Source: a virus
Strand: one strand, 5' to 3'
DNA: 57,107 bases
Virus record (IMG/VR): IMGVR_UViG_3300021407_000002
Span: 1 to 57,107 of that record
The notes under the pieces were generated by a model. The model saw only the letters and a program-made list of their open reading frames with translations, was not told the DNA's origin and did not search any database. Each line of letters begins with the position of its first letter. The first letter of the stretch is position 1. Below are positions 9,091 to 54,467 of the stretch, piece after piece. The position numbers and the translations under genes are program-made.

Positions 9091-9489
9091 TCATTCCTCC
9101 GGGTCATAGAGGGGTGCGACCATTACTGGCGGTAGTGCGACCATCGAAGCGTCGCCGTATAGCTCCGCATCAACCTTGACGTAGCGCCGCGCATCATCCC
9201 GCTGCACGCGCTTGGCGCGATACCGCTGGCCATTGACCACGAAGTGATGCTCGGTTGTCAGGTCCTCACGATAGCGGAATGTCAGCACGTGGGTTGGACG
9301 CTCAGTGACCGCGAAACCCACGCCCCACGCGACCTCGCCAGTGGTCGGCTCGATGGAGCACCAGGCAGTGCCGGTCACGGTATAGAGCGGCTTGGATTGC
9401 TCATCGTCCGTTACTGGAATGTCGCGCCAGAGCTGGATTTCGGCCAGGTTGCGGTAACGCCCGATCGGGGGCGCCTTGGGCAATGGCAT
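9091..9489 (-). CDS. Head closure / head-tail joining protein
   Basis: 132 residues from ATG 9489, which overlaps the connector stop by 4 nt (ATGA). The beta-rich sequence RYRNLAEIQLWRD, TGTAWCSIEPTTGE, HVLTFRYREDLTTEHHFVVN and RYRAKRVQRDDARRYVKV is typical of SPP1 gp16/HK97 gp7-type stoppers (phage head-tail joining family). Longer starts would run into the connector gene. Confidence 0.82.
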   Translation of the reverse strand: MPLPKAPPIGRYRNLAEIQLWRDIPVTDDEQSKPLYTVTGTAWCSIEPTTGEVAWGVGFAVTERPTHVLTFRYREDLTTEHHFVVNGQRYRAKRVQRDDARRYVKVDAELYGDASMVALPPVMVAPLYDPEE

Positions 9490-10199
9490 CAGGCAAACCC
9501 GAGTTGCCGATAGGCAACGAGCAGCGCATCCCACCCCGTCTGCACCATTGGCGTGAGGGTGAATTGCGTGCTCGATTCACGGTTTTCATACCAGGTCGCG
9601 ATTGCCAGCAGCAGGGCTTGCTTAATGTCCGGATCGATGTCGGCCGGATCTTCGCGCCCACATCGGAAGGTGATCCCGACCGCCAGCGGCCCCGGCGTGA
9701 GGTTGGCGACATCCCAGTCGGCCGCGCCGCCGTCCCAGGATGAGCCGCCCTGATTGCTGTCCCAGGTGGACGACATGTTGGTGGGCCAGTGGCCACCAAC
9801 CGGATACATTACGGCGGGAAACCGATCATCAGGCTCGACAATGAACTGGTTAACTGGCACCGGCCCGCCGCTCAGTGTGACCGACACCAGCTCTGCGAAT
9901 GGCGGATAGGGCAGTTCAAGCCCGGTATACCCTGGCGGCCAGGCGTGCAGCGTCAGCAGCCAGTCTTGAGTCATGATCGCATACGTGCAGTGCCGCTGCA
10001 GTAGCCCGACCGCAGCGGTGAGCATGCCGGTTAGCAATGCCTGTTCGGGTCCAGTCTCGGCCCCTGGGTCGAGGCGCAGGTGGGCCACGATCTCGGACAG
10101 TTCGAGCGGCAACCTGGTCGGGCCCATGGTGCGCCGCAGACGCGGGTGGAGATCGGGGCGGTTCCACGACCAGCGCCGACCCCAGGGTGACCAGCTCAC
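9489..10199 (-). CDS. Head-tail connector (HK97 gp6-like adaptor)
   Basis: 236 residues. The core LELSEIVAHLRLDPGAE, LLTGMLTAAVGLLQRHCT, and the end DIKQALLLAIATWYENRE are the DNA-packaging adaptor pattern of the gp6-like family, with an insertion rich in Gly/Ser/Trp (about residues 140-170). GTG at 10199 overlaps the previous stop by 4 nt (GTGA). An internal ATG 24 codons later (MGPTRLPLELSE) is a possible alternative start and gives the more usual N terminus. Confidence 0.82.
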   Translation of the reverse strand: MSWSPWGRRWSWNRPDLHPRLRRTMGPTRLPLELSEIVAHLRLDPGAETGPEQALLTGMLTAAVGLLQRHCTYAIMTQDWLLTLHAWPPGYTGLELPYPPFAELVSVTLSGGPVPVNQFIVEPDDRFPAVMYPVGGHWPTNMSSTWDSNQGGSSWDGGAADWDVANLTPGPLAVGITFRCGREDPADIDPDIKQALLLAIATWYENRESSTQFTLTPMVQTGWDALLVAYRQLGFA

Positions 10200-11641
10200 G
10201 GGCCAGCCTCCAATGCCGCCACGCGCAGCTCTAGTGCCGCGATCGTCGCATTGACGTTGGCAATCGCGGTGTCGACATATCCGCGGTTTGCAGCATGGGC
10301 GGCGAGCACAGGCGGAACGTCCAGGGTCAAAATGCCGTTGATGGTCCCGCCGCTGAGCTGCAAATAGCGGGCATCGGCGGCAGCTTGGGTCAGCAGTGGT
10401 GCAACCGCATCATCGACATATTGCCGGTTGACTGCATCGGTGGCGGCGGCCGGGCCGAGCAAACTGGTAATCCGATTGTTGACCATGCTCAGCGGCACGC
10501 TCGACATCGCCGTGGTCGGTGTCCACTGCCACATAACGACGCCGTTGATGTCGACCACAACGGCACCAGCCGCGCCGAATAGTCCTGTCGTCGGCGCGCC
10601 AATCTGCAACGCGGGTGCATTCAGTGCACCGTTCGGCAGCAGCAGCGGTCCGGTCAGCGTGCCACCAGCCTGTTGCAGGTATTTCGCGTCGGCATCGGCC
10701 TCAGTGATCCCGCCGCCCCCGCCGCCACCGCTGGCAATGCCACCAGACGGCTCGACCCCTGGCAGGAACAGCGACCAGTCGGCGTTCTGGCTGCTCGGCA
10801 CTCCTTCGGTCCTGGCCAGCGCCATCCAGAGCGAATACCCGAGCCGCACCACGTCGCCGCTGACGTAGCTGTCGCCTGGCTGATAGGATCCGCGATAGCG
10901 AAACACTGTGACGTCGAGGGGTTCGGATACCTCGTCATCGTCGAAGATGAGGCCAAGCAGGCCAGGCCCCGGGCTATACGGTGCCCTGATGCCCCTGCCT
11001 GGTCGCCCCTGTAGGCCAACACCCCCAGGCGTGCCGGCCGGCCCAGGCAGGCCCTGGGCGCCTGTAGCGCCTCGCTCGCCGGCTGGCCCTGGCTTGCCAC
11101 GATCGCCCTCGTGTCCGTCAGCTCCACGCGCCGCCACGATTTGCCAGCCAGGTCCACCGAGAGGCCCCGGCTGCTGGTGGAGTGCCCGCCAGGTGGCGCC
11201 GTTGTGCGCGACCTCATCGCCGGCCCCGTAGTCACCGTCGAGGGTGTAGAGACCGCGATGGAGAGGCAGCGGCAGACGCACCGGAAGGTCGACCACGTTG
11301 CCTGATGCCAGCGTAACGACGAAGCCGAATTGACGCGGGTCGGCCCCCTCTTGGTAGGCATGCACCGCGCGGATGCCATCGGCCAGCAGCAACCATTCGC
11401 CGATCCTGCCAGGTGGTCGAGCTGCTGTCGGCTGGCGTGCCTGCCACAAGCCGCCATTGAAGTGGACCACGGCGGCCTGCTCGTAGATGTCACCCTCGCG
11501 CCAGACGCGGGCGGCCTGGGTGAGATCGATCGGCGCGGTGCGGGCAGGTTCCGCGATGCCGATCAGTCGTCCAGCTTGTGGCGCATTGAACCGATCAGCC
11601 AGAGCTGCGGCCACGGCTTCGGCGATTTCGGGGATGTCCAT
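10196..11641 (-). CDS. Collagen-like virion fibre protein C (shortest paralogue)
   Basis: 481 residues. It has three carbohydrate-binding-like modules of the W-x-G-x-x-Y-E..VV..NGGLWQA type (about residues 45-90, 130-172 and 250-295) and a collagen-like Gly-X-Y stretch (about 172-216) between the second and third. A Gly run follows, then fibre repeats (ADAKYLQQAGGTLTGPL, ADARYLQLSGGTINGIL) and a coiled-coil end. It shares this N-terminal plan with the next two genes and a 65-residue module around MWQWT and PLSMVNNRI with paralogue B. Its position between portal and connector suggests a head or neck fibre; host-surface binding is inferred. Confidence 0.85.
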   Translation of the reverse strand: MDIPEIAEAVAAALADRFNAPQAGRLIGIAEPARTAPIDLTQAARVWREGDIYEQAAVVHFNGGLWQARQPTAARPPGRIGEWLLLADGIRAVHAYQEGADPRQFGFVVTLASGNVVDLPVRLPLPLHRGLYTLDGDYGAGDEVAHNGATWRALHQQPGPLGGPGWQIVAARGADGHEGDRGKPGPAGERGATGAQGLPGPAGTPGGVGLQGRPGRGIRAPYSPGPGLLGLIFDDDEVSEPLDVTVFRYRGSYQPGDSYVSGDVVRLGYSLWMALARTEGVPSSQNADWSLFLPGVEPSGGIASGGGGGGGITEADADAKYLQQAGGTLTGPLLLPNGALNAPALQIGAPTTGLFGAAGAVVVDINGVVMWQWTPTTAMSSVPLSMVNNRITSLLGPAAATDAVNRQYVDDAVAPLLTQAAADARYLQLSGGTINGILTLDVPPVLAAHAANRGYVDTAIANVNATIAALELRVAALEAGP

Positions 11642-14079
11642 CAGGCAGGGCCTAAATCTTGAACCGATACGAGGGTGCGCATATTCGGTGCGATCGTTCC
11701 GCCAGCGCCGACCTGGATCAGCGGGCCGCCAGTGCTGGTCGCGCTGATAGACAACAGGACGCGGACCGTGCCGCTGCTCGCATCAACCGCTGCGGTGAGT
11801 TTTACCGGAGTGCGGAATATACCGGTTGAATTGCTGGTCATTTTATACGCGACGAGCGTGCTCACGAGCGCGATCAAATTTGACGCATAGGTCAATTCCC
11901 AAATCGTGCCAACCGGATCGGTCGAGGCGAAGATCGGATCGATTGATACACCAATGTTGCGGATTCCTGACCCGCCAGCCGGCATCGGGAAATTGACATC
12001 GAGGAAGGTTAGAGCGGCGGCACTGATCGTGATTTCAACCGGCTGGTAAACGAGCGTGCGCAGGGCTGTCGGTGCGGTGGCAGCGGCAATAGCATCGTCG
12101 ACATATTGCCGGTTGGCTGCATCGCTAGCAGCGGCCGGCGCGGGCAGGTTTAGAATCCGATTGTTGACCATGCTCAGCGGCACGGTCGACATCGCGAGCG
12201 TCGTGGTCCATTGCCAGGTGATAGCGCCAGCAAGGTCGACGATCAGGGCATTGGCTGCCGAGAATAATCCGGTGGCATTGCTGCCGAACTGCAACGAGGG
12301 CGCGGCCAATGAGCCTTGCGGCAGTAGCAGCGGCCCGGTCATGATGTCGCCGGCCTTCTGCACGCCGAGTGCTCGCGTCAATACCTCGCTGAGGTTCGAT
12401 CCGTCATTGTTTTCGATCCAGACCGTCTCGCCCCCGCCACCGCGCCGCAGAACGACTCCATTATTCCAATGGATGCCCCCGCCGCGCCCGCCAAGGTTCA
12501 TTCCGATGTCGCCATCCGGACCGGACAAGGCATAAAGGTCGATGTCGCCGCGCACTAAACCGCCAGTTGCCAATTGCAGATAGCGGGTATCGGCATCGCC
12601 CTGCGAAATCCCGCCCTCGCCCTCGACCAGGATGCGGCGGCGTGATCCTGTCACGCCACTGTTATCCTCGATCATTACGCCAGGGTTACCAGCGGTTTGG
12701 CGAAACACCAGAGTATTCGCGTTGACGTAAGCAACCGCCAATCCGGCTTGCCAGACGATACCTTGATCGGTGGCTGCGAAGTTTAGCGCGCCGTCCATTG
12801 TGCCGCCCGCGAGCCGCAGATACCGCGCATCGAGAGTTGGCAGATCGGGACCGCCGACTTGCGCATCGACGTATGCCTTGTTTGCGACATCAAAAGGAAC
12901 AGTCGGCTGGGTAAAGACGTTTACGTGCGGCGCGCCATCGAGGCCCGGATAAATGCCCATGGCATCCATCATGGTGAGGCCCACCAATACAGAGAATGTT
13001 AGCTCGCCGCCTTCGCCCAGCCGCGCGAAGCTGCGCATACCACTGAACACCGTGTTGCCATCGCCAGCGGCAAATTGCAGCACGTTAACCTGGTTATCAC
13101 CACGAAGCTGCAACGGCCCGGCCATGAAGTCGCCGCCAGCTTTGTTGACATACCGCGCGTCGAGCGTGGGAAGGTCGGGCGTGCCGCCGCCACTCTGCCC
13201 GCCGCCACTGATCCCGGTCTCGGCGGATGGGAGATACAACGACCACTTGGTCGAGGTTGCAGTCGGCACGTCGCCCGTGGGCTCGACGCATATCCACAGC
13301 GCGAAGCCGAGCCGCACGATGTCGCCGCGCTGGTAGTCTGCACCAGGCTGGTAAATCCCGACGAAGCGCATGCTGGACACGTCGACCGGATTGGTGATCG
13401 AGCCATCCTGCAAGACGACGCGCACGAAGCCTGGCTGGCCTGGCACTGCCTCGACGCCCGCGATGCCGAAACCATCCTGACCTGGTGCACCAGGCTCGCC
13501 CTTGGCGCCTGTGAAGCCGCGCGGTCCAATCTCACCCGGTGCACCTGGCGGACCGACCTCGCCTACCGGCCCACGCTCGCCAGCGATGCCCTGCCGCCCC
13601 CTGGCCGCTACTACCACCCACCCAGCGTCGTCGGGCGACCCAGGCGCCTCTATAAGCGCGCGGAAGGTGGCCCCGGCATACTCGACCTCGTCACCCTCGA
13701 AGTAGTGGGCACCAGGCCGATACTGGCCTCGGTGCACTGGCAGCGCGAGACGGAACGGCAGGTCGATCGTCTTGCCACCAGTCAGCCCGACCATGAGGCC
13801 GAACACGCGCGGGTCTTCGCGATCCTGGTAGCTCCGCACCAGGCGAATGCCGTTGGTGAGCAACAGCCATTCACCAGTCTCGGCTGACGGCCGCGAGGCG
13901 GTGCGGATGCGTGCCTGCCAGACGCCGCCCTGATGGTGGACGACGGTGCCCTGCTCGTGGATTTCACCAGGTGCCCAATCACGGGCGAGTTGGGTGAAGG
14001 ACACGCGCGGTCCCGCCTGGTCGATCAGCCTGGCGGCCACCTCGTCGGCGAACCTGGTCAGGTCGAGGTCGTCAGGCAC
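11641..14079 (-). CDS. Collagen-like virion fibre protein B
   Basis: 812 residues with the plan of its neighbours: binding-like module (about 33-75, PGEIHEQGTVVHHQGGVWQA), a beta region ending with module two (about 118-160), collagen-like repeats (about 161-205), module three (YQPGADYQRGDIVRLGFALW), then four fibre repeats of the KAGGDFMAGPL/RLAGGTMDGAL kind, each followed by ANKAYVDAQ-like segments. The C-terminal 110 residues form a beta-rich cap. ATG 14079 overlaps the upstream stop by 1 nt. Probably trimeric. Confidence 0.85.
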   Translation of the reverse strand: MPDDLDLTRFADEVAARLIDQAGPRVSFTQLARDWAPGEIHEQGTVVHHQGGVWQARIRTASRPSAETGEWLLLTNGIRLVRSYQDREDPRVFGLMVGLTGGKTIDLPFRLALPVHRGQYRPGAHYFEGDEVEYAGATFRALIEAPGSPDDAGWVVVAARGRQGIAGERGPVGEVGPPGAPGEIGPRGFTGAKGEPGAPGQDGFGIAGVEAVPGQPGFVRVVLQDGSITNPVDVSSMRFVGIYQPGADYQRGDIVRLGFALWICVEPTGDVPTATSTKWSLYLPSAETGISGGGQSGGGTPDLPTLDARYVNKAGGDFMAGPLQLRGDNQVNVLQFAAGDGNTVFSGMRSFARLGEGGELTFSVLVGLTMMDAMGIYPGLDGAPHVNVFTQPTVPFDVANKAYVDAQVGGPDLPTLDARYLRLAGGTMDGALNFAATDQGIVWQAGLAVAYVNANTLVFRQTAGNPGVMIEDNSGVTGSRRRILVEGEGGISQGDADTRYLQLATGGLVRGDIDLYALSGPDGDIGMNLGGRGGGIHWNNGVVLRRGGGGETVWIENNDGSNLSEVLTRALGVQKAGDIMTGPLLLPQGSLAAPSLQFGSNATGLFSAANALIVDLAGAITWQWTTTLAMSTVPLSMVNNRILNLPAPAAASDAANRQYVDDAIAAATAPTALRTLVYQPVEITISAAALTFLDVNFPMPAGGSGIRNIGVSIDPIFASTDPVGTIWELTYASNLIALVSTLVAYKMTSNSTGIFRTPVKLTAAVDASSGTVRVLLSISATSTGGPLIQVGAGGTIAPNMRTLVSVQDLGPA

Positions 14080-17000
14080 TACTGCGGCCCCATATCCGAC
14101 AAATAGATTTGCGTGCGGTGATCATCGAAGCCGCTCCCGACGCCCATCATCGTGATAGCCGGACCAGACAACATTCGAACTTGAATCGATATAGTCGGGT
14201 TGTTGCCCGTCACCGCCGCCATGAACGCGATTTGGCCGCCGCTGATGTCCTGCGCCACGGTGGTCGTCTTTTGATGGAGGCTCTGCCGGATGCGGGCAGT
14301 GCTGCCGTTCACGCCCCATTGGAATAACCAACTACTATTAAGCGCTGCGGTCGATGTAAGACCTGGAACAACGATGATCGAGACAAACGAATTACCTCCG
14401 CGAGGAATGTTGAACGTGCCCGTCCAGAGCGTAAGGAAATTCGCAGTCAGCACGAGCTGGTTTGGTTCTATAAGTCGGCTTAATCCGCGCCCGTATCGCG
14501 CATCGCCGTTGATCGTATCGATGATCGCGCGGCGGTTCGTTCCGTTGTTGTCCTCGATCTGCGGCTGGGTGTTGGCAGTGTGGCAACGGATCATCATACC
14601 GGTGCCGAATGCCTTGTAGAAGCGGCCACCCGAGTTTGTTGTAAGGCCATAACCATCACCAGCAGCAACGAAGTCGCGGTTTACGTTTTCGACTATTCCA
14701 TACAGTTCGATATACCGCTCGATGTTGCCCGCCTCGGTCGCGATGCCGACAATGTTTAGACCACGATTGAACAGCCTCGCGCCGACCTTGCCATCGTTGA
14801 CGTCAGTCGGGGTGCCATGGCCGAAGCGAACGAAGCCGCCATTGGTCATGGTGAGGTTGCTGGTCGCGAGCGTAGTGCCCGCTATTTCGAGGCCCGTAAG
14901 CAGGGCGCGTTGTGTGCCGCCGAGCGTGACGCCGCCAGCCAGTGCCTCGGGCGGTTTCGGGATTATGACTTGATTTGTGGTCTGCACGTCGCGCGTCATA
15001 CCCGTGCAGTGCAGCTTAAAGCGTGGCGAAGCGCCGGCGGTGCGTATGCGCGCCTCTAGTCGTTTTGGGTTCGCATTGGCCGTATCACTTAACCGAAACT
15101 GATCGAACAGAAGACCGCTAGGATTGCGCGACATCGATACGATCGACATCGTCGCAGCACCGAACGTCGTGGTGACCTCCAATACGAACGAGCAATCAAT
15201 GTTGGTGCCGTAAATATCGGCTTGGAAGCGGAAGCTGCCGTATGCCGGCAAGGTTATTAGAAGCATCCAGTTATTCGCTGCGTAATTCGTCGCCGATGGC
15301 ACGCCTTCCCAGTAGTCGCCCTGGTTATAGCCGTATAGGTCGACTGTAGAATAATCCGGCACGGCTGGCGCTACCGGGATCGCGAGACGGGCACGAAATA
15401 GCATGTTGTCAAAGCGGACGATTTCACCGGCCGTGATGTTCAGGCCAGCCATCCAATCGCGCACGCGGCCCTGATTGGCATCGACATAGCGCCGGGTCGC
15501 CGCATGCAGTTCCGAGACAGGATCATCGAACAGGGTCAAATACCCCTGCATATCATCGCCAGTCTTGACGATATAGCGCGCGTCACCCTCCGGCCGGGTC
15601 AATCCTCCTCCGGAACCTGTCAGGTGCTGCCACTCGCCCAAGGTCGACGACCAGAGAATCCAGTCGTGGTTAAAAATCGTCTGCCCGCCGATGCCAGGCA
15701 CGCCGGCCGGCGCATTTTCAGGCACCTGCGGGTCGTCCGTCTCTGCAATGAAGTAATCGCCTGGCTGCGCCGCCCAGGTGATCAGGTCCGGGTTATTCGC
15801 CGCCACGCGCCACAAGCCTTGATAGCGGATGAGTGAAGTTGCAAGCGTATCGATGTAACCCTTGCGCGCAAGATCATTGTCATCGATCGGATCGCCGGCG
15901 AGCGTGCGCACCTGGTTTACGACGGTGATCATGCCCGAGCCCAGCCCGATGCGCAGCGGAACGTCCGCGATCGAACCGTCTGCGGCATGACGGACGATGC
16001 CAAGGTCCTCGGCCTGGCCTATCATCGGCGTAACGCCGAAACTCCACTTCCCCGCCCCCTCGCGGGCGAACTGCAATACCTCACCGTCGATCCCGTCGAG
16101 CTGCAAGGCAGCGATCGAGCCGGCGACGGTGCCAAGTGAGACTGACGATGACGGCCCGGTATCTTGAAAGCGCACCACCAGGTTGCCGGTCATGGTATCG
16201 CCGAGCTTGCTCACGAACAGATCCGGCCCGCGATCGAATAGCCCGTCGACATATTGCTTGGTCGACGCATGCAGGTTTGCGACCGGATCGGCGTGCAGCG
16301 TTAGAAAGCCGGTCATCTCGCCACGATCACCGCCGCGACGCATGATCCCGGTGAGTTCGTTCAAGACCTCCGCGCCGTTCCCGAGTTCATCGAGAACGAA
16401 TAAATGGTCCTGACGATCTGCTTGCAGGCAAAGCCCTGTCACTGCGCCTCTTGCAGCAACGAAGACGCCGAAGCGCTCAGTTTCCCATATGATGCCGGGC
16501 GCGCGATTGATCGGCAGAACTGGCGAACCCACGTCGAAGTTTAGGTCGCCGGTCATCATGTCGCCGGCTCTGACCACGAATAGACCGTCAGCCTGGTCGA
16601 CGTATGCCTTGCGCACCAGGTCATCAGCGCCGATCGGATCGCCGCTCACGGTCATTGGCTGGCGCAGCTCCACGTGGCCATCGGCCCACGAGACGCTAAA
16701 ATCGACCGTCGGCGGAAGCCCGTTCCGCAAAATGGTGAAGTCTTGCCGCGCGTCGTAATGCAGCGCGCCGACTTCCCAGCGTGGCCCGGCCGGGTCAGCC
16801 CATTGAATGAGCGTGCCCTCACCACCCTCTAGGCGGAATGTCGCCCGGCCGAGGGTTTCGTTACCAGGTGGCCCTTGAACATTCCTGATTAGAATGCGGT
16901 TGTTGGTGACGGTCAGCGGCCCGGTCATCACGTCGCCGGTCTTGGCGACATAGGCACCAGGCAGCAGATCGTTAAAATCATCGACGTAACGTTTGGTCAC

Positions 17001-19031
17001 GGCGTCTTGCGGCTGGGTCGGGTCAGCACTCAGTTCCAGGTGCGGCGCCTCACCTGGCACGTCAGGAGGGCGCGAGCGCATCAGGGTCTCGGCACCCTGT
17101 AGCACGCCGGGATTTTCCACCCGGAAAAGGATACTCGGGCCGCCGACGACATCCGACCGCGTCGCATAAATCCTGGCCAGGCCGCCAGCATCGTCTGCCC
17201 AGATGAGCGGCGGTGCAGCTCCGCTCTGATCGCCGTCCTTGTGCAGGAAGACGGAATGATTGATCTGCAACGCGCCGTCGCTCGCCTGGAACCGGATCGG
17301 CACATCGACCGGTTGGCCGTTCTCGAAACGAACAAAGCTCAGATCGTAATTGCCTGCTTGCAGGCCCGTCGTGCCGATAGTCCAACGCCGCTGCCCGTCC
17401 GCCTCGAAGCGCACGAGTGCTGCCTCGGTCCCGCGCAATATAATGGCTGCATCGCCGAAGCCCGAGGTCAGGACAACCTCGGCGCCTGGCGCCCCCGGCG
17501 CTGTGACGCTTAGATTGCCGGTCATCGTATCGCCAGCCTTGAACACATAGAGGTCGTCAGCTTCAAGGCGCGTCAGCCCGCCGCCGCTCAGGTGCTGCCA
17601 TAGGTCAAGCTCGTGCGACCAGATGACGAAGTCGAGATTATGGATCGTTGCGCCGCGCAAGCCAGGAACATCCGCCGTAACGATTTCCGGGATCGCCGGG
17701 TCGGCAGTCTGCGCGGTGTAATAATCACCAGGGTTCGCCAGAAGCGCGGCGTCGATCAGATCCGGATCATTTAGCGCAGGCTGCCACAATCCTTTGTATG
17801 TCGTCTTCGCGCCGACGACCGCATCGACATAGGCTTTCGTGGTGGCATGCGTCGGGTGCGTCGGCGGCCCCGACAAGCCGAGCGCGCCGGCCATGACATC
17901 ACCGGCCCGCATGACATAGGTGTCCGAGCCGGGAATACCGCCGCCTGATGACGGCTCCACCCCAGGCAGGAACATCGCCCAGGCCGGCGTCGTGGCACTG
18001 GGCACCACGTTGGTGCGTTCCCGCGCGATCCACAGGTTGAAACCGAACCGCACCACGTCGCCCGAGGCATAGCTCTGACCTGGTGAATAGGTGCCGGCGT
18101 AGCGGAATACTGTCAGGTCGAGGGGCGGTGAGACCGTGTCGTCGTCGTATTGCAGGGTGAGCAGGCCAGGCCGTTCCTGCCAGACGCTGGCGATGGATCG
18201 GCCGCGAGGCCCGACCTCGCCGGGACGCCCCTGCAAGCCTTCCTGGCCGGGTGCGCCGGCTTCGCCTTGCTCACCCTGCGGCCCTCGCTCGCCCTGCCTC
18301 CCACGCCCCCCACGTTGGGCCACAAGTGCCCATTCATCGGACGGCGGTGAGCTGGTCGCCTTATCCACCAGGCAGCGCCACGACGAGCCGTCAAGCGCGA
18401 CCTCGTCGCCCAGCTCATAGACCACGTCGCCCCGATACTGGCGGCGGTGCAGTGGGATCGGGAAGCGCAGAGGCAGCTCCCGCCGCAGTCCGTCGCTCTG
18501 ATCAATCCCAAGCATGAACGAGCGCGCGTCGAGCTGGGCAACGTCGATCTCGTGCAGACCGTCTGCAATGATGCGCCACGTCGCTGCAGCGGGTCCTGGT
18601 GCCTCGGTCGTGCGGTCGATTGCCTGCCAGGTGCCCCCGAGATGCCGGGCAATCTCTCCGGGGTCATAGACGCGGCCGGGGACGTAGGCATGGGCGATCG
18701 TCAGGTGACCGTCGCGGCCATCCCGTGGACGTGGCGCGGTGGCGAACAGGGCCATCAACCGATCGGGCATGGCCCTGGTTTCTTGCGCCACCAGATTGTG
18801 CAGCGCGCGCACCGCGTCGGCGCTCTGCCGGATGGAATCTTCCGCGCGCCGCCTGGTCTCTTCGAGCAGCTCATCGGCCTGGCTCGTGCGCTCTGCCAGG
18901 CGATCGGCCAGAGCTAGCTCGAATGCGTCAAGCCTGGCCTGGACATCTTCGCGCAGCCGCACCAGCACGGGCGCGACCGCCCGCACGACTGCCTCGGTAG
19001 CAGGGTCAAGCCGCCCGAGATCGCCGTCCAT
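14079..19031 (-). CDS. Giant collagen-like virion fibre protein A
   Basis: At 1650 residues this is the largest protein of the genome. Order: a coiled-coil segment rich in Arg/Glu/Ala (about 20-90), a binding-like module (115-160), a second (195-240), collagen-like repeats (241-278), a third module (about 305-350), then a long series of RAGDVMAGAL/KAGDTMTGNL repeats alternating with TKAYVDAVV-type segments. Two copies of a domain with GDYYTAQTADPAIPE and GDYFIAETDDPQVPE also occur, and it ends with a beta-rich tip. It overlaps the portal gene by 26 nt. I infer a head/neck-attached trimeric fibre because it is encoded straight after the portal. Confidence 0.87.
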   Translation of the reverse strand: MDGDLGRLDPATEAVVRAVAPVLVRLREDVQARLDAFELALADRLAERTSQADELLEETRRRAEDSIRQSADAVRALHNLVAQETRAMPDRLMALFATAPRPRDGRDGHLTIAHAYVPGRVYDPGEIARHLGGTWQAIDRTTEAPGPAAATWRIIADGLHEIDVAQLDARSFMLGIDQSDGLRRELPLRFPIPLHRRQYRGDVVYELGDEVALDGSSWRCLVDKATSSPPSDEWALVAQRGGRGRQGERGPQGEQGEAGAPGQEGLQGRPGEVGPRGRSIASVWQERPGLLTLQYDDDTVSPPLDLTVFRYAGTYSPGQSYASGDVVRFGFNLWIARERTNVVPSATTPAWAMFLPGVEPSSGGGIPGSDTYVMRAGDVMAGALGLSGPPTHPTHATTKAYVDAVVGAKTTYKGLWQPALNDPDLIDAALLANPGDYYTAQTADPAIPEIVTADVPGLRGATIHNLDFVIWSHELDLWQHLSGGGLTRLEADDLYVFKAGDTMTGNLSVTAPGAPGAEVVLTSGFGDAAIILRGTEAALVRFEADGQRRWTIGTTGLQAGNYDLSFVRFENGQPVDVPIRFQASDGALQINHSVFLHKDGDQSGAAPPLIWADDAGGLARIYATRSDVVGGPSILFRVENPGVLQGAETLMRSRPPDVPGEAPHLELSADPTQPQDAVTKRYVDDFNDLLPGAYVAKTGDVMTGPLTVTNNRILIRNVQGPPGNETLGRATFRLEGGEGTLIQWADPAGPRWEVGALHYDARQDFTILRNGLPPTVDFSVSWADGHVELRQPMTVSGDPIGADDLVRKAYVDQADGLFVVRAGDMMTGDLNFDVGSPVLPINRAPGIIWETERFGVFVAARGAVTGLCLQADRQDHLFVLDELGNGAEVLNELTGIMRRGGDRGEMTGFLTLHADPVANLHASTKQYVDGLFDRGPDLFVSKLGDTMTGNLVVRFQDTGPSSSVSLGTVAGSIAALQLDGIDGEVLQFAREGAGKWSFGVTPMIGQAEDLGIVRHAADGSIADVPLRIGLGSGMITVVNQVRTLAGDPIDDNDLARKGYIDTLATSLIRYQGLWRVAANNPDLITWAAQPGDYFIAETDDPQVPENAPAGVPGIGGQTIFNHDWILWSSTLGEWQHLTGSGGGLTRPEGDARYIVKTGDDMQGYLTLFDDPVSELHAATRRYVDANQGRVRDWMAGLNITAGEIVRFDNMLFRARLAIPVAPAVPDYSTVDLYGYNQGDYWEGVPSATNYAANNWMLLITLPAYGSFRFQADIYGTNIDCSFVLEVTTTFGAATMSIVSMSRNPSGLLFDQFRLSDTANANPKRLEARIRTAGASPRFKLHCTGMTRDVQTTNQVIIPKPPEALAGGVTLGGTQRALLTGLEIAGTTLATSNLTMTNGGFVRFGHGTPTDVNDGKVGARLFNRGLNIVGIATEAGNIERYIELYGIVENVNRDFVAAGDGYGLTTNSGGRFYKAFGTGMMIRCHTANTQPQIEDNNGTNRRAIIDTINGDARYGRGLSRLIEPNQLVLTANFLTLWTGTFNIPRGGNSFVSIIVVPGLTSTAALNSSWLFQWGVNGSTARIRQSLHQKTTTVAQDISGGQIAFMAAVTGNNPTISIQVRMLSGPAITMMGVGSGFDDHRTQIYLSDMGPQ

Positions 19032-20475
19032 GGATCACCGTTCTTTGCGTGCGCCGCTCAGGGCTGGGAAGCAGCCGCCGCGGTGGAGCATCGCGGAATA
19101 CCTCACCCATCAGGGCATCGCGGAGCACGTCGGGCGACAGTGCTGGTGCCGGCAGTGCAAGCTGTGCTGGTGGTGCTTCCAGCGCGGCGGTCGGCGTCGC
19201 TGGTGGGTTCGGTCCGCCGGTCGGCGGCTGGCTGGTCAGGTCGGCACGCTTGGCCAGCACTTCGACCGGAACCATCTGCTGCTGCATAAAAATCTGGTCG
19301 CCGCCTGGCAGGGGATTGAGACCCTCGACCGAGCGCGCTTCATTCGGCGTCCGCAGTCCGCCCTGGACCGATCGCGCCAATGCTTCCACCCGCGCTTGCA
19401 TCTCGGTGCGGAACAAATAATCCGTATCGAATTCGAGCCACTCACGGCGGCCGTCCATATCGAAGAACTGGGTAAACTTGTCCTCGATCGCGCTCATGTG
19501 CGCAACGAGACAGCCGGAATAATAGATCCGGGTGAGCTGCTCGGACGAGTTGTATGATACCTTGGTCAGATCGCCGAGCATGAAAATCGGGAGGCGATAC
19601 ACCCGCGCAACGTCCTCGACGGTGTAGCGAAGCTGCTCGATAAGCTGGGCATCGACGGCGGTCAGGGCCAGCGATTTCCATTCCAGGCCCTGTTCCAGCA
19701 CTGCCACTTCACCGGCATTGCCTGGCCCCTTATAAACCGCGCTCCAACGGTCCTTGATTGCCTGCGCCCGCTCAGGGTCCAGCTTGCTTGCGGTTTGCAG
19801 CACGCCAGACGGCCGCGCCATGTGGTTAAAGAAGCGTTCCGATTGCGTCAGGATAGCCATACCGGCCGAGGTTGACAGCGCCGCCGCCATCAGCGGGGTG
19901 ATGCCGATCAGGGGGTCGGCCAGGGTCAGCATGCGGTGGTGCAAGCACTCCCGCGTTGTGAGCATGCGTTGCACGTCAATGTCGGCCAGCTTATTCGGGG
20001 CGACCGAATAGAACACTTCATTGCCGGAACGGTAGGGCCACACGCCATCGGGGAATAGGACGTGTAACTCGTCAATCTCATAGCGCCGGTTGCGCATCGC
20101 ATAGAGATAGCCGTTGCCGCGATATAACTGCGATGCAACGAACTGCTTCATCATATCGAAACGGGTTTGATACCCGTTCGGCTTGTCCAGCACGCGCAGC
20201 GGGGCAGATACCTCGACCTCGACCTTGTCGCCATCGACCATGCGATAATGCCGGATCGGCAAGCGGGCGATGTCACTGCTGATCGTATCGATCGAGGTAT
20301 AGACCGCCGGGAAGGTGAGCAGGGGCGGCATGGTGTTCGGCGACGGGTAGCCGCTTTGAAACCACGTATGACCCCATTGGTTCGGTGGCGTGGTCGGCCA
20401 CCAGGCGGTGCGCGTTACCCATTGACCGAGGCGGGAGAGCGCGCTGCGCCAGATGCTAGTGCGCCCTACTGCCAT
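19006..20475 (-). CDS. Portal protein (HK97 family)
   Basis: 489 residues. Typical features are FPAVYTSIDTISSDIARLPI near residue 55, YLYAMRNRRYEIDELHVLFP, SERFFNHMARPSGVLQT and the DVARVYRLPIFMLGDLTKVSYN motif, followed by a Pro/Ala-rich C terminus. It forms the dodecameric DNA gate of the capsid vertex. The gene follows the capsid gene instead of preceding the protease, an unusual order. Confidence 0.95.
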   Translation of the reverse strand: MAVGRTSIWRSALSRLGQWVTRTAWWPTTPPNQWGHTWFQSGYPSPNTMPPLLTFPAVYTSIDTISSDIARLPIRHYRMVDGDKVEVEVSAPLRVLDKPNGYQTRFDMMKQFVASQLYRGNGYLYAMRNRRYEIDELHVLFPDGVWPYRSGNEVFYSVAPNKLADIDVQRMLTTRECLHHRMLTLADPLIGITPLMAAALSTSAGMAILTQSERFFNHMARPSGVLQTASKLDPERAQAIKDRWSAVYKGPGNAGEVAVLEQGLEWKSLALTAVDAQLIEQLRYTVEDVARVYRLPIFMLGDLTKVSYNSSEQLTRIYYSGCLVAHMSAIEDKFTQFFDMDGRREWLEFDTDYLFRTEMQARVEALARSVQGGLRTPNEARSVEGLNPLPGGDQIFMQQQMVPVEVLAKRADLTSQPPTGGPNPPATPTAALEAPPAQLALPAPALSPDVLRDALMGEVFRDAPPRRLLPSPERRTQRTVIHGRRSRAA

Positions 20476-25197: not shown

Positions 25198-25879
25198 CGA
25201 CGTAACGCTTATCCGCGAAACGTTCTCGCTCGGCCTCGGGATACCAGATATATTTTGCCTTCTCGCTGATCACCTGCTCGATGAGCTGGGCGAAGGCATC
25301 AACCGCCGCCTGGTCCTTGAAGTGCACTGCGATCGAGCGGAATGGTCGGTCGTCCGGCTGGTCGTATGCTGGCATGCCGTCCCACTCACCGTCCGGGTCG
25401 GATACGCCGAGCTTAAACAGCGGTTCCAGTTCGAAGTCGGCGAACCCGGTCAGCGACAGGTCGACGCCCATGTCGCGCAGGTCCATCATTTCAAGTTTAA
25501 GCGTCCCGGCATCCCAGTCGGCGTTCAGCGCCAGCTTGTTATCTGCCAGCGTGTAAAGCCGCCGCTGCGTGTCCGACCAGCCGCGCGCAACCATTACAGG
25601 AACGGTCTCGATTGCCAGTTGATGCGCCGCCAGCACGCGACCATGCCCGGCGATGATCGTTCCCGCCTCGTCCACCAGCACCGGCATCGTCCAGCCCCAT
25701 TGCCGGATCGAGGCAGCGATCTGCGCGACCTGGGCGTCCGAGTGCGTCCGCGCATTGTTGGCATAGGGAATTAACTTTGCGATCGGCCAACGCTCGACCG
25801 CATCGGCTGGCCAGAGCGGCCCGCCAGTCGGTGCTTTTTCCGAACGACCGCCGCTTTTGGGCTTGATATTAGGGGTCAT
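25187..25879 (-). CDS. ParB-like nuclease-domain protein beside the glycosyltransferase
   Basis: 230 residues from ATG 25879. PIAKLIPYANNARTHSDAQV, IRQWGWTMPVLVDEAGTIIA and IIAGHGRVLAAHQL (75-88) give the ParB/Srx fold usually found at the N terminus of phage DNA adenine/cytosine methyltransferases. RRLYTLADNKLALNADWD follows as in those fusions, but the methyltransferase part is absent. It is the first gene of the long late operon and overlaps the glycosyltransferase by 11 nt, so the two probably act together, perhaps in DNA modification (inference). A longer frame upstream lies antisense to the next gene and is rejected. Confidence 0.85.
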   Translation of the reverse strand: MTPNIKPKSGGRSEKAPTGGPLWPADAVERWPIAKLIPYANNARTHSDAQVAQIAASIRQWGWTMPVLVDEAGTIIAGHGRVLAAHQLAIETVPVMVARGWSDTQRRLYTLADNKLALNADWDAGTLKLEMMDLRDMGVDLSLTGFADFELEPLFKLGVSDPDGEWDGMPAYDQPDDRPFRSIAVHFKDQAAVDAFAQLIEQVISEKAKYIWYPEAERERFADKRYVDEP

Positions 25880-25940
25880 GGTGACTATATTTTGGGTGCG
25901 GACAATCATGCCCGCAACCGAAACGAGATGGAGACCACCA

Positions 25941-49058: not shown

Positions 49059-50051
49059 TTACGCTGGCATAGGGGTTGCGGCGCCACCTTCAAGCGCCCT
49101 GACACGTAGCGCAAGCTGTTGGATCGCGCGCACTAGGAAGGCTGGCGTGGAATTCCCGACATCGCTATTTACCAGAAACCCGATTGGCACGGGAACGACC
49201 TCGCCATCAGCGCCTCGATGTGAGCCGCTACCAAGCCGCATTGCTGCGATGGTGTCCAATGCGTCTACTGTGACAGCGCTGGCCTGTGCGGCTTCAAACA
49301 GTATCGGCTGCAAGATAATCTGACCCTGAAGCCCGCCGCCGCTATTCGCATTGACATAGACAGCGAGATGAGTCGCGCCAGCGACTTGCCAGCCAAAACC
49401 GATTGTCGGAATTGAAAACTGGCTGTAGACGATCCCATCGGCTTGAACTCTGGTGCCGTTGCACGAGGTTGGCCTTTGGATCGTTACGTCCCGCGTTCCT
49501 CGATTGATTGTAATAACGTTCTGGATAGGCGGCCCGCCGGTTAGTAATCCGATCTGAAAGTCACCGTTTGGCTCGGTATTGAGCGTCCACCGTTCGGTAG
49601 GGTGTGCGCCGACAGCGAGCTCGGCAAGGCCATACTGGCCCGCCGGATCAAAAGCGTAGCAGTGCAAGGCGCCGACCTGTCCGGGGGTTGATATAGACGT
49701 ATCGGAATACAAAATTCCGACTGCGGAAATATTCCCGGCAGCGTTGATATTGCCGTTTGCGCCGTTGAGGGTTAATGGCCCTGTCATCGTGTCGCCGGCT
49801 TTGTGAACGTATTGGCCAGCATGGTTGGCAGCGATCGCATTGATCGCTTGCCAGAGCTGGTCGTGGCGGGTCCCGTCGAGTGGTATCCCAGCAAGCTCGA
49901 CAACGGTGCAAGGTTCCTCTTGCGTGGCGTCGAACCAGATCGCTTCAAGCTGCGTGGTAGACAGCCCGGTCTGAGGATTGCCATCGGTAAAGCCGTCCTT
50001 TCCGGGACCGAATTTATCGATGAAGCGGGTCGGCGTGCTGATACGTTGCAT
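49059..50051 (-). CDS. Tail fibre protein
   Basis: 330 residues starting MQRISTPTRFIDKFGPGKDG, then FTDGNPQTGLSTTQL, a start common in tail proteins of proteobacterial myophages. HKAGDTMTGPLTLNGANGN is a fibre repeat, followed by a beta-rich region and a C-terminal coiled end (AIQQLALRVRALEGG). Probably a second adhesin. Confidence 0.85.
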   Translation of the reverse strand: MQRISTPTRFIDKFGPGKDGFTDGNPQTGLSTTQLEAIWFDATQEEPCTVVELAGIPLDGTRHDQLWQAINAIAANHAGQYVHKAGDTMTGPLTLNGANGNINAAGNISAVGILYSDTSISTPGQVGALHCYAFDPAGQYGLAELAVGAHPTERWTLNTEPNGDFQIGLLTGGPPIQNVITINRGTRDVTIQRPTSCNGTRVQADGIVYSQFSIPTIGFGWQVAGATHLAVYVNANSGGGLQGQIILQPILFEAAQASAVTVDALDTIAAMRLGSGSHRGADGEVVPVPIGFLVNSDVGNSTPAFLVRAIQQLALRVRALEGGAATPMPA

Positions 50052-50054
50052 GGC

Positions 50055-50324
50055 TTAGTGCCTATCAGGGGGCGAGGGTGGGGGCGGCGGCGGCGGGCGA
50101 TTGGCGCCCGCAGCGATGAGGGCAAGGATCGCGGTTAGTATCTCGGCCCACCAATCGTGCAGACTTTCGACCAGGCCGAGCTTTACGCAGGTGCCGGGCG
50201 GCGCGACGCCCGATAATACACCCCACATGCAGCCGGCGCCCACAATCAGCATGCAGACAAGCACAACGCCGATCGTCGCCGCCAGCAACCAGAAGCAGGC
50301 CCGGAGCATGTCGAACTGGCGCAC
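50055..50324 (-). CDS. Two-span membrane protein, holin candidate
   Basis: 89 residues, GTG start at 50324 (an ATG at 50309 is possible). Spans LLAATIGVVLVCMLIVGAG and AEILTAILALIAAGAN, then a run of seven prolines. Size and topology suit a class II holin; the probable lysin is 4 kb downstream in the same operon. Assignment tentative. Confidence 0.65.
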   Translation of the reverse strand: MRQFDMLRACFWLLAATIGVVLVCMLIVGAGCMWGVLSGVAPPGTCVKLGLVESLHDWWAEILTAILALIAAGANRPPPPPPPSPPDRH

Positions 50325-50336
50325 GGCTGGGCGAGC

Positions 50337-50582
50337 TCACGGCGGTATTTCGTTCGTCGGCAGGCCAACCCAGGCGGTGAATTGCAGATCGCGGACAGCG
50401 CGCTCTAGCAGCCTCACGCGAGCCTCTAGCGCCTCGATCGCCGCCGGATCGGCGAGCAGCCTCGGCGCGCCCGCAACGCCAGCATAGAGACGCGGCGTGG
50501 CGGGCGTCATGTCAATGGCAGGCTCACCGTCAGATAGGGCGGTCGGTGGTCCAGTGCCCCGGCGCAGTTGGATCGTCGCCAT
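50337..50582 (-). CDS. Short fibre-related protein (MATIQLRR family)
   Basis: 81 residues: MATIQLRRGTGPPTALSDGE, PAIDMTPATPRLY, then a coiled coil (AIEALEARVRLLERAVRDLQ). The N terminus matches that of the next fibre gene upstream and is typical of phage fibre N-terminal adaptors. It may be a trimeric cap or a truncated fibre. Confidence 0.75.
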   Translation of the reverse strand: MATIQLRRGTGPPTALSDGEPAIDMTPATPRLYAGVAGAPRLLADPAAIEALEARVRLLERAVRDLQFTAWVGLPTNEIPP

Positions 50583-50605
50583 CGTTCAGCTTTCCATAAC
50601 AGTTA

Positions 50606-51688
50606 TCAGAATGAGCCGCCGTCTACGATATCGACCGAGAGGGGCGACGCTGCGGTGCCCAGGCCAAACAGCGAGCCATCAGTGGCGACCTCAATCAGTG
50701 ACCTGGCAACTATTTGGCTCAGCGCGTCCTGCACGTTGGTGGCGGTGAGGGGTGGAATGGTGGTGATGTTGACGTTCGATGCTGTCAGGACCGCGCCGCC
50801 GACCTCGACCACGACCCACGCAGGGGTCGCGTCACAGATCAGCCAGTCGCCTCGGGTGTATGTCCCAGAGGGTGGCGTCGGTGCCACCGGCCCGACTGGT
50901 GGGCCGCCGCTCGTGCAGATGAGATACCAGCCGCGCCGCGCCGCCGTGGCCGGGGGCAGGTCGCCCTGCGGGATAGGGTTGATCGGGTTCGGCGACGGCG
51001 TAACGGTATTGGTGGCGACGTCATAGGTGCCACCGAACACCAGGTTGCCGGTGAGGTTGGCGATGGCGTTGTTTAGCTCATTGATGGCAGGCACGACGGT
51101 CTTCGCAGTGGTCTGTAGTGCTGCCACGTCAGCACCCATCGGACCGCGCAGGCCGAGCGAGGTGATCGGAAAGATTGGGTCGGCACCTGCGGCGATCTGA
51201 GCGCCGGAAGCGACTGCCATACCCAGGGCCGATCCCACCAGGGTGAGCGCGCTGCCAGCCGGGACGTTGACCGCACCGCGCAAGGCAGCAGTTGCGATGA
51301 TGACACTCAGCGGGACAGCATCGCCGTCGCCGGTCATGGTCGCATCGTGGTTGACTGCAACGATCCCGCCGCCTGGTGGCGTCTGCGGGCCGAACCGGAG
51401 ATTCCCAGCGCCGTCAGTGATCAGCACATTGTCTGCCACGCCTCCGGTGACCCGCAGCGTCGTGGTGCTGAAAGTCTTGGCGCCAGTGACAGTTTGGGCG
51501 CCGGCGACCTCGACCTGGCGGGCACTGTCCACCAGCGGAATAAGCGCGGTCCCCGTGTCGATCCATAAAGAGTTCGGACCGCTGCCGGTAAAGCCTGGCA
51601 AGTTGAAAAACGGCTCGCCCTCGTTGAGCGTGGCAGGTGGAGCGACTTGCCCACCAGTGACGTGGCGGCGCAGTTGGATCGTTGCCAT
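50606..51688 (-). CDS. Tail fibre protein
   Basis: 360 residues opening MATIQLRRHVTGGQVAPPAT and LNEGEPFFNLPG, an adaptor, then GAQTVTGAKTFSTTTLRVTG (fibre repeat), helices, and a module GTYTRGDWLICDATPAWVVV of carbohydrate-binding type. Ends SVDIVDGGSF. Starts directly after the stop of the adaptor-like gene. Confidence 0.83.
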   Translation of the reverse strand: MATIQLRRHVTGGQVAPPATLNEGEPFFNLPGFTGSGPNSLWIDTGTALIPLVDSARQVEVAGAQTVTGAKTFSTTTLRVTGGVADNVLITDGAGNLRFGPQTPPGGGIVAVNHDATMTGDGDAVPLSVIIATAALRGAVNVPAGSALTLVGSALGMAVASGAQIAAGADPIFPITSLGLRGPMGADVAALQTTAKTVVPAINELNNAIANLTGNLVFGGTYDVATNTVTPSPNPINPIPQGDLPPATAARRGWYLICTSGGPPVGPVAPTPPSGTYTRGDWLICDATPAWVVVEVGGAVLTASNVNITTIPPLTATNVQDALSQIVARSLIEVATDGSLFGLGTAASPLSVDIVDGGSF

Positions 51689-52057
51689 TTAGAACGTTCC
51701 TCCATCAATCCGTTGTGTCGCCGTGAACACGATCGGCCCGCTCATCGCGCCGCCTGCCAGGTCCAGCTTAGTGATCTGTAGTGCCTCGATCTCGTCCACC
51801 GCTGCTTGGAAATTCTGCCGCACCGAGGCAGTGGTCGGCGTGCCGAAAACCGGGAAGTTGGGATCGATCGCCGAGACCAGCCTGGCAGATGAGTTGCGCA
51901 ATATCGGGGTTGGCGGCGGGCGTGAGCTACGCGGCAGCACGTGCACAGGCGGCTGGCGCGGCTGCGGGGCAGATGCCTCGCGCTGCATGAGGGCAAGCGC
52001 CTTGCGCACCATAGCTGCGGACACATGGCGCGGCCGGTGGATTATGGGGCGGCGCAT
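51689..52057 (-). CDS. Short tailspike-adaptor-like protein
   Basis: 122 residues from ATG 52057. A basic start, then a segment NSSARLVSAIDPNFPVFGTP, TTASVRQNFQAAVDEIEALQ nearly repeating residues 25-65 of the tailspike. Ends with a fibre-like GGAMSGPIVF and DGGTF, the same last residues as the neighbouring fibre. Looks like a duplicated anchor domain without receptor-binding part. Confidence 0.75.
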   Translation of the reverse strand: MRRPIIHRPRHVSAAMVRKALALMQREASAPQPRQPPVHVLPRSSRPPPTPILRNSSARLVSAIDPNFPVFGTPTTASVRQNFQAAVDEIEALQITKLDLAGGAMSGPIVFTATQRIDGGTF

Positions 52058-52058
52058 A

Positions 52059-54467
52059 TCATCCCGCCACCTCACAAATCATAACGCGGACAACCCAATT
52101 GAGATTGGCGCCAGCGATGCCGATCCCCTGCACCAACAGCCCGCCGTTGACGGTATCAGGCGGCATGCTAACCCCTAGAGTGGTGAGCGCGGCATCCGCC
52201 CAGTCAGGCGTCTGATTGCCGATCTGCGCGCCGACAATGGCGACTGTCCCAGCTCCGACACCGCGCTTGACCACGCTGACGACATCCCAACCCGCGCTGT
52301 TCCCGGTCGTTGTGTCGCGAGCGGTTACCATGCAACGGACCGTCATGGTGCAATTATCTGCTAACGTAACTATATTGAACGGGGTCGGGCCACCCCCATC
52401 GCTGGTCAGGTTCTTTAGCTCAGCTCCGACAGTCTGACCGCGTAGCACCAGCTCACCGGCCTGCGCGTCGCCGGTCGAGGCGAAACTACCGCTCGCCCAC
52501 GCGCCGCGCCCATAGTTGCCACGCGTCATCGCTTGCGATCCGCCTGGCACCCAAGAAAAGGCGCCGTTGGCGGTCGAGGCTTGGCCAGCGGCCACGATGG
52601 CATGATCACCCGAGGCGGTATTCTGGTCGCCGCCGATAATTACCGACCAAGGTCCGCTGGCACACTGATCGCTAGCAAAGCGTAATGCCTGGAAGTCGAT
52701 CGCCTTGACGCCGCGCGGGTCGCCGGCCGCCGCTTCATTGGTGAAAATGTTATCAGGTGCCATAAACACGGTGAATGCGCCTGTCGCAGTGCAGGTGACG
52801 ACGCCATAGCCTCCGAGCACATCCAATGATCCCCAGTTGCCGGCGAGCGACAAGCCGCCTTGATAGGTATTCCCGACGAGGTCGGCAGTTGAGCCGGTGC
52901 CTCCATTGAGCGTGGTCGCCCCGGCGATCACCGACGAGGTTATTTTTAGTGCATAGATGCCGGTGGTTGGCGTGATGGTAAGATTGCCGGAAAGGAAGCA
53001 ATCGACAATCCGCATCTGGGATATTTCGGTATTGGGGTGGAAGTCTAAGAACTCACCCGGGGTATTGTAAATCACCTCTGCAACGGAAAGATTATAGATC
53101 ACGCCGGTATTGATGTTGCCGCCGATGCCGGCGTTGCACGCTTCCACGTGGCATCCGCGAAATGAAAAGATCGTCGCGGTGTAACCGCCTCCCGCCATGT
53201 TGTCAAAGGTAACCCAGCGTTCCGGACGGTTCTGGCCCTGGTTAAAATGACAGTTGTCGAAGTGGATCGTATTCGGTCCGATCCCAGGGTCGGTCGCGGG
53301 GTCAGGTTGACCGCCAGTGATGCGGACATACGCGTTGCAGTCATAGTCGCCGACGCCGTTGCGGCCGAACCGACACTGTGAAAAGCGCAGCTCAGGCCAA
53401 CTATCAATTTCGACATGCACATCGGTTGCAGCGCCAGAGAAAATTCTGGTCGCCATCGTCGAAAGCCCTGTCACTCCGTTTGCATACCAGCGCCACGGCT
53501 TCGCGTGATTGAAGCTCGTCACGTCCTCCACTACGACGTTGTAAGACGATGTGATGAAGACGCCGACCGAACCTGGTGGAGGGGTGCCGCCAGAGCGCAA
53601 CACGGTAAGGTATTTCAGGCCCTGCGCGAGATTGCCAGTGCCGCCGTCGAGCGTGACGCAGGTCGCCACACCGTTGTCGAAATTGAGCGTTGTGCCGAAG
53701 CCGGCAACCGGCGAACCACCGCCGCGCAGGTTGCCGACCAGGATGACGTTACCCTCTAGCACCAACCCATCGCCGAGACGGTAGCCGGTGGGTGTCGCGG
53801 GCGCGACGACGGTCTGCAAGCCCAGAGCATTCGCTGACTGGATTGCAGCTCTAAAGGCAGGTTGGTCATCGGCGACATTATCGCCGACTGCGCCGAGGTG
53901 GATCACGTTAACCACGAATGCGTCGCGCAGTGCGGAAAGCGCGGCATCGACGTAGCGTTTCGTTGCAGCTTGCAGGTCTGCGTTCGGATCATCTGCCAGC
54001 GTCAGCAGGCCGTTGGCTTTCAAGTCGGTATGAACTGTGGTGAGGTTGTTCGCATCGTCCACAGTCAGCCTGGCATCATTATCGGCAGCGAGCATAAAAA
54101 CGCCGTCGCTGCGCTGGCCAAGCTGCCACCGCTTGTTAAGCACGCCGTTCAGGAACATCGCAAAAACATCGACAGGAGTGCTGGCAGTCATCACCAACGG
54201 ATAAAACCCATCGGTGTCGATCAGTAGCTGGCCGTGCAGGTCGCCACCGTCCAGCCCGAGCTTGGTCGCTTGTAAATCCTCGATGTCGTCCTTGGCCGCC
54301 TGGAAATTGTTACGCACCGACTCAGTGGTCGGGGTGCCGAAAACAGGAAAGCTCGGATCGATCCCCGATACCATCCTCGCGGTCGCATTGCGCACTGCGG
54401 AACCTAGCGGCTCGGGTAGCTCAGCGACGAGCACATTGCGCGGTCGATGTGTTACGGTGCGTCCCAT
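52059..54467 (-). CDS. Tailspike with pectin-lyase-like beta-helix
   Basis: 802 residues. Anchor ATARMVSGIDPSFPVFGTPT, a fibre segment, then NVIHLGAVGDNVADDQPAFR at about 210 begins the right-handed beta-helix typical of polysaccharide-degrading spikes, running to about 550. VIIGGDQNTASGDHAIVAAG and GQASTANGAFSWVPGG resemble YadA-type head repeats. The C-terminal domain is a beta-rich trimeric tip. Likely a glycan hydrolase or lyase; catalytic residues not identified. Confidence 0.87.
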   Translation of the reverse strand: MGRTVTHRPRNVLVAELPEPLGSAVRNATARMVSGIDPSFPVFGTPTTESVRNNFQAAKDDIEDLQATKLGLDGGDLHGQLLIDTDGFYPLVMTASTPVDVFAMFLNGVLNKRWQLGQRSDGVFMLAADNDARLTVDDANNLTTVHTDLKANGLLTLADDPNADLQAATKRYVDAALSALRDAFVVNVIHLGAVGDNVADDQPAFRAAIQSANALGLQTVVAPATPTGYRLGDGLVLEGNVILVGNLRGGGSPVAGFGTTLNFDNGVATCVTLDGGTGNLAQGLKYLTVLRSGGTPPPGSVGVFITSSYNVVVEDVTSFNHAKPWRWYANGVTGLSTMATRIFSGAATDVHVEIDSWPELRFSQCRFGRNGVGDYDCNAYVRITGGQPDPATDPGIGPNTIHFDNCHFNQGQNRPERWVTFDNMAGGGYTATIFSFRGCHVEACNAGIGGNINTGVIYNLSVAEVIYNTPGEFLDFHPNTEISQMRIVDCFLSGNLTITPTTGIYALKITSSVIAGATTLNGGTGSTADLVGNTYQGGLSLAGNWGSLDVLGGYGVVTCTATGAFTVFMAPDNIFTNEAAAGDPRGVKAIDFQALRFASDQCASGPWSVIIGGDQNTASGDHAIVAAGQASTANGAFSWVPGGSQAMTRGNYGRGAWASGSFASTGDAQAGELVLRGQTVGAELKNLTSDGGGPTPFNIVTLADNCTMTVRCMVTARDTTTGNSAGWDVVSVVKRGVGAGTVAIVGAQIGNQTPDWADAALTTLGVSMPPDTVNGGLLVQGIGIAGANLNWVVRVMICEVAG

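Follow-up and report, generated by a model that had tools for sequence, protein, structure and literature searches.

A portal-adjacent family of phage proteins with CBM5/12-fold modules and three paralogous, putatively fibre-forming members with collagen-like repeats

Modules with a CBM5 fold at the N-terminus of trimeric fibres have been described for the Milano tail spike (TSP gp124), the long tail fibre of Agrobacterium phage 7-7-1 and CBA120 TSP1. In Milano, the two N-terminal globular domains are a tail-binding module that is wedged into the baseplate (PMC10811340). For CBA120 TSP1, a likeness to chitin-binding domains was noted, and polysaccharide binding by the head-binding domains of tailspikes had never been reported until then (PMC3966878). 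On the head side of the virion, cyanophage A-1(L) has trimeric neck fibres composed of gp82-gp81-gp80 with a distal CBM that did not bind to the host (PMC10966104), and the head spikes of RcGTA attach to the capsule (PMC13420450). Collagen-like fibres of phages, neck fibres and tailspike domains with a CBM fold are already known.

The three paralogous proteins described here, termed fibres A, B and C, resemble each of these systems in part. They share the N-terminal CBM5-fold modules with the fibres of Milano, 7-7-1 and CBA120, but these are baseplate-mounted, lack a collagen run and are encoded by genes that are not beside the portal gene. Judged by its description, the A-1(L) system may serve as a precedent for trimeric neck fibres with a CBM, although it is encoded far from the portal (gp80-82) and is a bead-chain of separate subunits. 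The RcGTA head spikes, likewise compared by description, appear similar as head-side accessory spikes, but their genes lie at an ectopic locus and they sit on the capsid. Family 5/12 CBMs of chitinases share the fold and the core aromatic residues, whereas the phage modules are without the aromatic binding pair. Close relatives by position and sequence include gp62 of Escherichia phage JLK-2012, a protein of Salmonella phage FSL SP-016 and PAJU2 gp07, which are annotated as 'portal protein' (PHROG 1289/16748). They occupy the same slot between portal and adaptor, have two CBM5/12-type modules with the same linker and are homologous in sequence, but each is a single gene product of about 330-410 aa with mostly a coiled-coil spacer and neither shaft nor tip. 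A literature search in a limited collection gave no account of such a portal-adjacent family. As far as the tools used reach, what is new is the entire slot family, together with its fusions to portals and the triplication that gave rise to giant fibres.

The window, i.e. the whole 57,107-nt stretch analyzed (IMG/VR record IMGVR_UViG_3300021407_000002), is a complete circular genome with a terminal overlap of 127 bp, in which the first and last 30 bases match. It encodes a contractile sheath and P2/Mu-type baseplate genes; no tRNA or Rfam matches were found in it. The open reading frames of the three fibres have exactly the coordinates given by an earlier reading of the sequence alone, and their estimated genome share of about 15% amounts to 15.5% (Table 1). 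Downstream of the fibres lie the genes for the adaptor Ad1, the head closure protein Hc1 and Ne1. The successive overlaps of 26, 1, 1 and 4 nt indicate that portal, A, B, C and adaptor form one translationally coupled array. Elsewhere in the genome, at 23464-26227, a 577-aa protein combining a TET-associated glycosyltransferase (TAGT, PF20691) with an FkbM methyltransferase adjoins a ParB-like protein, which suggests DNA base hypermodification.

Table 1. Coordinates of the fibre array, its parts and the separate tail-fibre locus in the window.
Feature	Position	Strand	Remark
Portal protein, upstream boundary of the slot	19006..20475	-	PF04860, E 1.6e-77
Fibre A, 1650 aa	14079..19031	-	26 nt shared with the portal gene at its start
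A residues 112-360, shared region (module 1, module 2, collagen, module 3)	17952..18698	-	BLASTP and module HMM
Collagen-like Gly-X-Y run of A	18201..18311	-	PF01391
C-terminal tip of A, about residues 1515-1650	14082..14489	-	TNF-like lectin-like fold (low-confidence model); other tip in relatives
Fibre B, 812 aa	11641..14079	-	Overlaps A by 1 nt
Collagen-like run of B	13435..13599	-	PF01391
C-terminal tip of B	11644..12102	-	Distantly like the tip of A (22-24% identity); diverged or replaced in relatives
Fibre C, 481 aa	10196..11641	-	Overlaps B by 1 nt; terminates in a predicted helix, no tip domain
C residues 44-298, three CBM5/12-type modules around the collagen run	10748..11512	-	Modules 1 and 3: pLDDT mostly >80, matched to CBM5 structures
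Collagen-like run of C	11000..11131	-	PF01391
Head-tail adaptor Ad1, downstream boundary of the slot	9489..10199	-	4-nt overlap with C
Tail-fibre/tailspike locus downstream of the baseplate wedge gene (802, 128, 360, 330 aa)	49059..54467	-	

All three proteins follow one order: a helix, two CBM5/12-fold modules, a collagen repeat and a third module, followed by a shaft and, in A and B, a tip. The paralogy of their N-termini, proposed earlier, is confirmed by BLASTP for every pair (A/C E 2e-54, 43%; A/B 4e-49, 38%; B/C 1e-77, 40%). The proposed plan holds in that the collagen repeat lies between modules, but what had been distinguished as one binding-like module and two further modules are three copies of the same CBM5/12 kind. 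Three modules per protein were detected with the module profile; A may contain a fourth one around residue 1200. Pfam CBM_5_12 scores 32.5, 37.5 and 35.6 bits in A, B and C, above the gathering score of 26.2. For Pfam Collagen, the 812-aa protein B scores 29.5 bits, above the cut-off of 27.2, and the other two lie just below it with 26.6 and 23.3 bits. A six-frame search with PF01391 found exactly three collagen places in the genome, with matches in A, B and C, and the uninterrupted Gly-X-Y run comprises 13-15 triplets in A and B. Residues 564-665 of B (12085-12390) and 313-414 of C (10400-10702) are 62% identical, far above the remainder of their C-terminal halves, so that a recent exchange between the two genes is likely from the sequence comparison.

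The position among head-neck genes, pointed out earlier, is a slot conserved across phages. A, B and C match phrog_1289 (E 5e-24 to 4e-19) and phrog_16748 (E 5e-18 to 1e-14), and tblastn with A detected homologous genes in enterobacterial phages, all of them located between portal and adaptor and in most cases annotated as 'portal protein'. The search relied on profiles and contig scans because tblastn with fibre C against phage records gave no match. The gene arrangement is the same around portal relatives in Rhizobium, Stenotrophomonas, EBPR and Pseudomonas phages. Portals were used as anchors to avoid searching for CBM proteins alone, and contigs with at least 700 b downstream were counted. 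In this portal-anchored set, a CBM5/12-module protein is the product of the first gene downstream of the portal in 66 of the 73 viral contigs and in 50 of the 74 contigs with bacterial prophages. The seven portals underlying the portal profile mostly have a slot gene next to them, and hits were ordered by their resemblance to the portal of this phage, so these percentages describe its portal clade and not all phages. Three more bacterial loci (L204, L206, L209) have the CBM gene just beyond the slot. Conversely, the portal lies directly upstream in all 64 CBM-anchored contigs that include one. CBM ORFs elsewhere in the flanks are few: four in viral contigs, all of them paralogs B/C, and eight in genomic contigs, of which four are module-bearing portals and three lie just beyond the slot. 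In half of 186 slot genes, the start overlaps the portal stop as ATGA.

The 163 unique slot proteins range from 105 to 1783 aa, usually 105-660 aa, with a median of 344 aa among the 156 complete ones. Their common plan is an N-terminal helix-like segment, a coiled-coil or Gly-X-Y spacer, one or more modules and a basic RGRDG end; a DLTQ-type C-terminal motif was found in only 15 of the 156. The minimal slot protein (L102:1503-1820) has 105 aa, i.e. one module and a short N-terminal part. Proteins of this size cannot be long fibres, which counts against the fibre reading. In Enterobacteria phage PPompW_132418 (L254:3058-4282), the slot gene is annotated as frameshifted and is possibly dispensable, unless this is a sequencing error. 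The label 'portal protein' for slot proteins is widespread and occurs in phage records in L005, L007, L012 and L254 as well as in PHROG 1289/2271.

Further evidence for a tie to the portal comes from fusions. Four portals carry a module at their own C-terminus and all four lack a separate slot gene, whereas none of the 177 portals with a separate slot gene carries one (Fisher p 5e-4); shuffled portal tails used as a control gave 0 matches in 4480. An Acidobacteria MAG (L236:85-2274) contains a 729-aa ORF in which the portal is joined to a complete collagen-containing, two-module slot protein, a fusion that looks natural at the sequence level. The other three are Acinetobacter prophage portals (L230:9851-11269, L234:9878-11314, L248:9872-11311) with a CBM5/12-like module at the end, terminating in GVFK..YKKG.FVTHKGSLWHCEKD. 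The portals of L175, L235 and L249 have similar tails that score below the threshold. Two other candidates were not counted: phrog_2271 (859 positions), the halves of which, effectively portal and slot protein, are exactly two adjacent JLK-2012 genes, and the 583-aa 'portal' of vB_EcoS-569R3, which may be due to a frameshift or sequencing error. The fusions, by excluding the separate gene, tie the module to the portal complex. They also raise a conflict. The C-terminus of portal proteins forms the crown and is expected to face the head interior. The portal of HK97 extends about 140 A into the procapsid (PMC9410871). Modules fused to portals would therefore be expected inside the capsid, at odds with docking of the separate proteins on the outside.

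Taken together, we propose, with a probability of roughly 0.45, that A, B and C are trimeric virion fibres which are docked at the portal or neck vertex and built from the portal-neighbour family. The N-terminal helix and the CBM5/12-fold modules would mainly serve as docking elements or structural beads, and the collagen run would act as a spacer. Three copies of the gene would have arisen in this lineage and gained fibre shafts, and the exchangeable tips of A and B would make contact with the surface of the host or with the polysaccharide on it. C, with a predicted helix at its end, may act as a collar or as a short accompanying fibre. A search for virion proteomics of related phages, and for proteomics, electron microscopy or knock-out data on any member of the family, found none.

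A first alternative is that A, B and C are extra tail fibres on the baseplate, with the tandem modules acting as tail-binding domains as in Milano, 7-7-1 and CBA120, and that the position of their genes is incidental. An AlphaFold2 monomer model of C was built with 20 orthologues and paralogues. Its pLDDT is mostly above 80 in the modules and low elsewhere, with a mean of 60. In a Foldseek search with this model, the best-ranked matches were tail fibres of Agrobacterium phage 7-7-1 (E 5e-4), and the baseplate-wedged Milano tail spike came near the top. The shaft of A has sequence in common with the 802-aa tailspike of the phage itself (32%, E 8e-8). Although these matches favour a baseplate location, the slot gene also adjoins the portal in phages with unrelated (siphovirus) tails, and the modules fuse to portals. 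In addition, a separate locus for tail fibres follows the baseplate wedge genes of this phage, as expected from the earlier statement that A, B and C lie far from the baseplate fibres. An N-terminal motif, which would be the baseplate anchor, is common to the 802- and 128-aa fibres of this locus only and missing in A, B and C. A baseplate location is therefore considered unlikely.

The sequence-only reading had suggested head or neck fibres whose CBM modules themselves bind glycans or exopolysaccharide, holding the virion before tail attachment. The Pfam matches above the cut-off, the attachment of RcGTA head spikes to the capsule and the fold are in line with this. Modules 1 and 3 of C match chitinase CBM5 domains with Z 7.0-7.3 and 1.6-2.1 A over 45-47 residues (module 3: Z 7.3, rmsd 1.7 A over 46 residues; module 1: Z 7.0), and the CBM5 'ski-boot' fold is present with its core Tyr (Y 92%) and Trp (W 99%) among the scored modules. 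However, nearly all CBM5 modules have an adjacent Y-W or W-W pair that is known to be important for binding (PMC8449059). At these positions, which were set by alignment to 2RTS as model columns 25-26, no aromatic residue was found in 282 and 280 phage modules, respectively, while the core Tyr and Trp are retained. The fold is also that of the tail-binding domains in the closest phage structures, and the CBM of the A-1(L) neck fibre is without host binding. Furthermore, the pairwise identity of the modules follows that of the portals with a Spearman coefficient of 0.76, and the adaptor (0.67) and the N-terminal 40 aa (0.50) do so less closely; the pairs are not independent and the coefficients are given with no p value. 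The modules thus evolve like the portal and not like swapped receptor-binding parts, which further weakens the claim. Glycan binding by the modules is improbable on these grounds; another face of the module could possibly bind sugar, but the sugar-binding-like modules probably serve fibre building or docking more than sugar binding. A CBM5-like stretch matching the module profile (E 2e-5) also occurs in the Anabaena CIS protein All3316 (Cis13, PDB 7b5h), the published account of which does not mention carbohydrate.

Complete A-B-C arrays were found in L017 and L020, and arrays ending at contig ends in L015, L016/L095/L096, L021 and L022, while L027 has a single three-module version. The same sheath family is encoded in 5 of the 8 related records searched. 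In a maximum-likelihood tree of the shared region, A forms one group (94/96) and B and C are less clearly separate. The A/B/C labels cluster on the tree far beyond chance, which indicates that the duplications predate the divergence of these phages. The suggested history of duplication followed by C-terminal diversification is borne out in both parts: the slot gene was triplicated before the lineage diverged, and long shafts ending in exchangeable tips were added. The identity of A to its relatives is mostly high along its length, but the tip can be unrelated. In L017, it drops to 26-29% in the last 150 aa compared to 71-76% just upstream, and a Peptidase_S74-like end (E 0.0016, below the cut-off) takes the place of the tip. 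Likewise, the identity of B to its counterpart in L015 falls from 93% to 25% at the C-terminal end. The model of A is weak, with a mean pLDDT of 43 and 35-50 in the tip. Its last 135 residues nevertheless match TNF-like trimeric lectins (Z about 9, 3 A, 125 residues; poor model), and the region near residues 1230-1358 matches the C-terminal domain of a tailspike (Z 9.8; poor model). Judged from this model, the tip of A would be a better candidate than the modules for contact with glycans.

Two further explanations concern a different place in the virion. A, B and C could be capsid-surface decoration or head fibres and not neck fibres. SPP1 has a collagen-like head protein, and the shaft of B matches the 'head decoration' PHROG phrog_2647 (E 1e-9), but linkage and fusion are with the portal and not with a capsid gene, which makes this explanation quite improbable. 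That the short slot proteins are internal, crown-associated portal partners in assembly or DNA packaging, with the long A to C as a derived exception or as something other than virion fibres, agrees with the expected internal location of portal-fused modules, the translational coupling to the portal and the absence of the slot in some lineages with a module-bearing portal, but is very improbable given that A has shafts and an S74-like or TNF-like tip, features typical of fibres on the outside, that a 1650-aa fibre would hardly fit in the head and that several lineages lack both module and slot gene.

Beyond this phage, we tentatively suggest, with the odds somewhat against the proposal in its full breadth, that the portal vertex of proteobacterial phages widely contains a component that has gone unrecognised, the CBM5/12-fold 'portal companion'. 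It would be encoded by a coupled gene of its own or joined to the C-terminus of the portal, and in this lineage triplication would have turned it into giant fibres at the portal vertex with swappable lectin-like tips. If this is right, the database 'portal protein' of many proteobacterial phages would be an accessory fibre or docking protein at the portal vertex, and some phages would bear long head-side adhesins with exchangeable tips besides their tail fibres. Calls of a 'carbohydrate-binding module' in phages would then often denote a structural bead and not sugar binding, which matters for receptor prediction.
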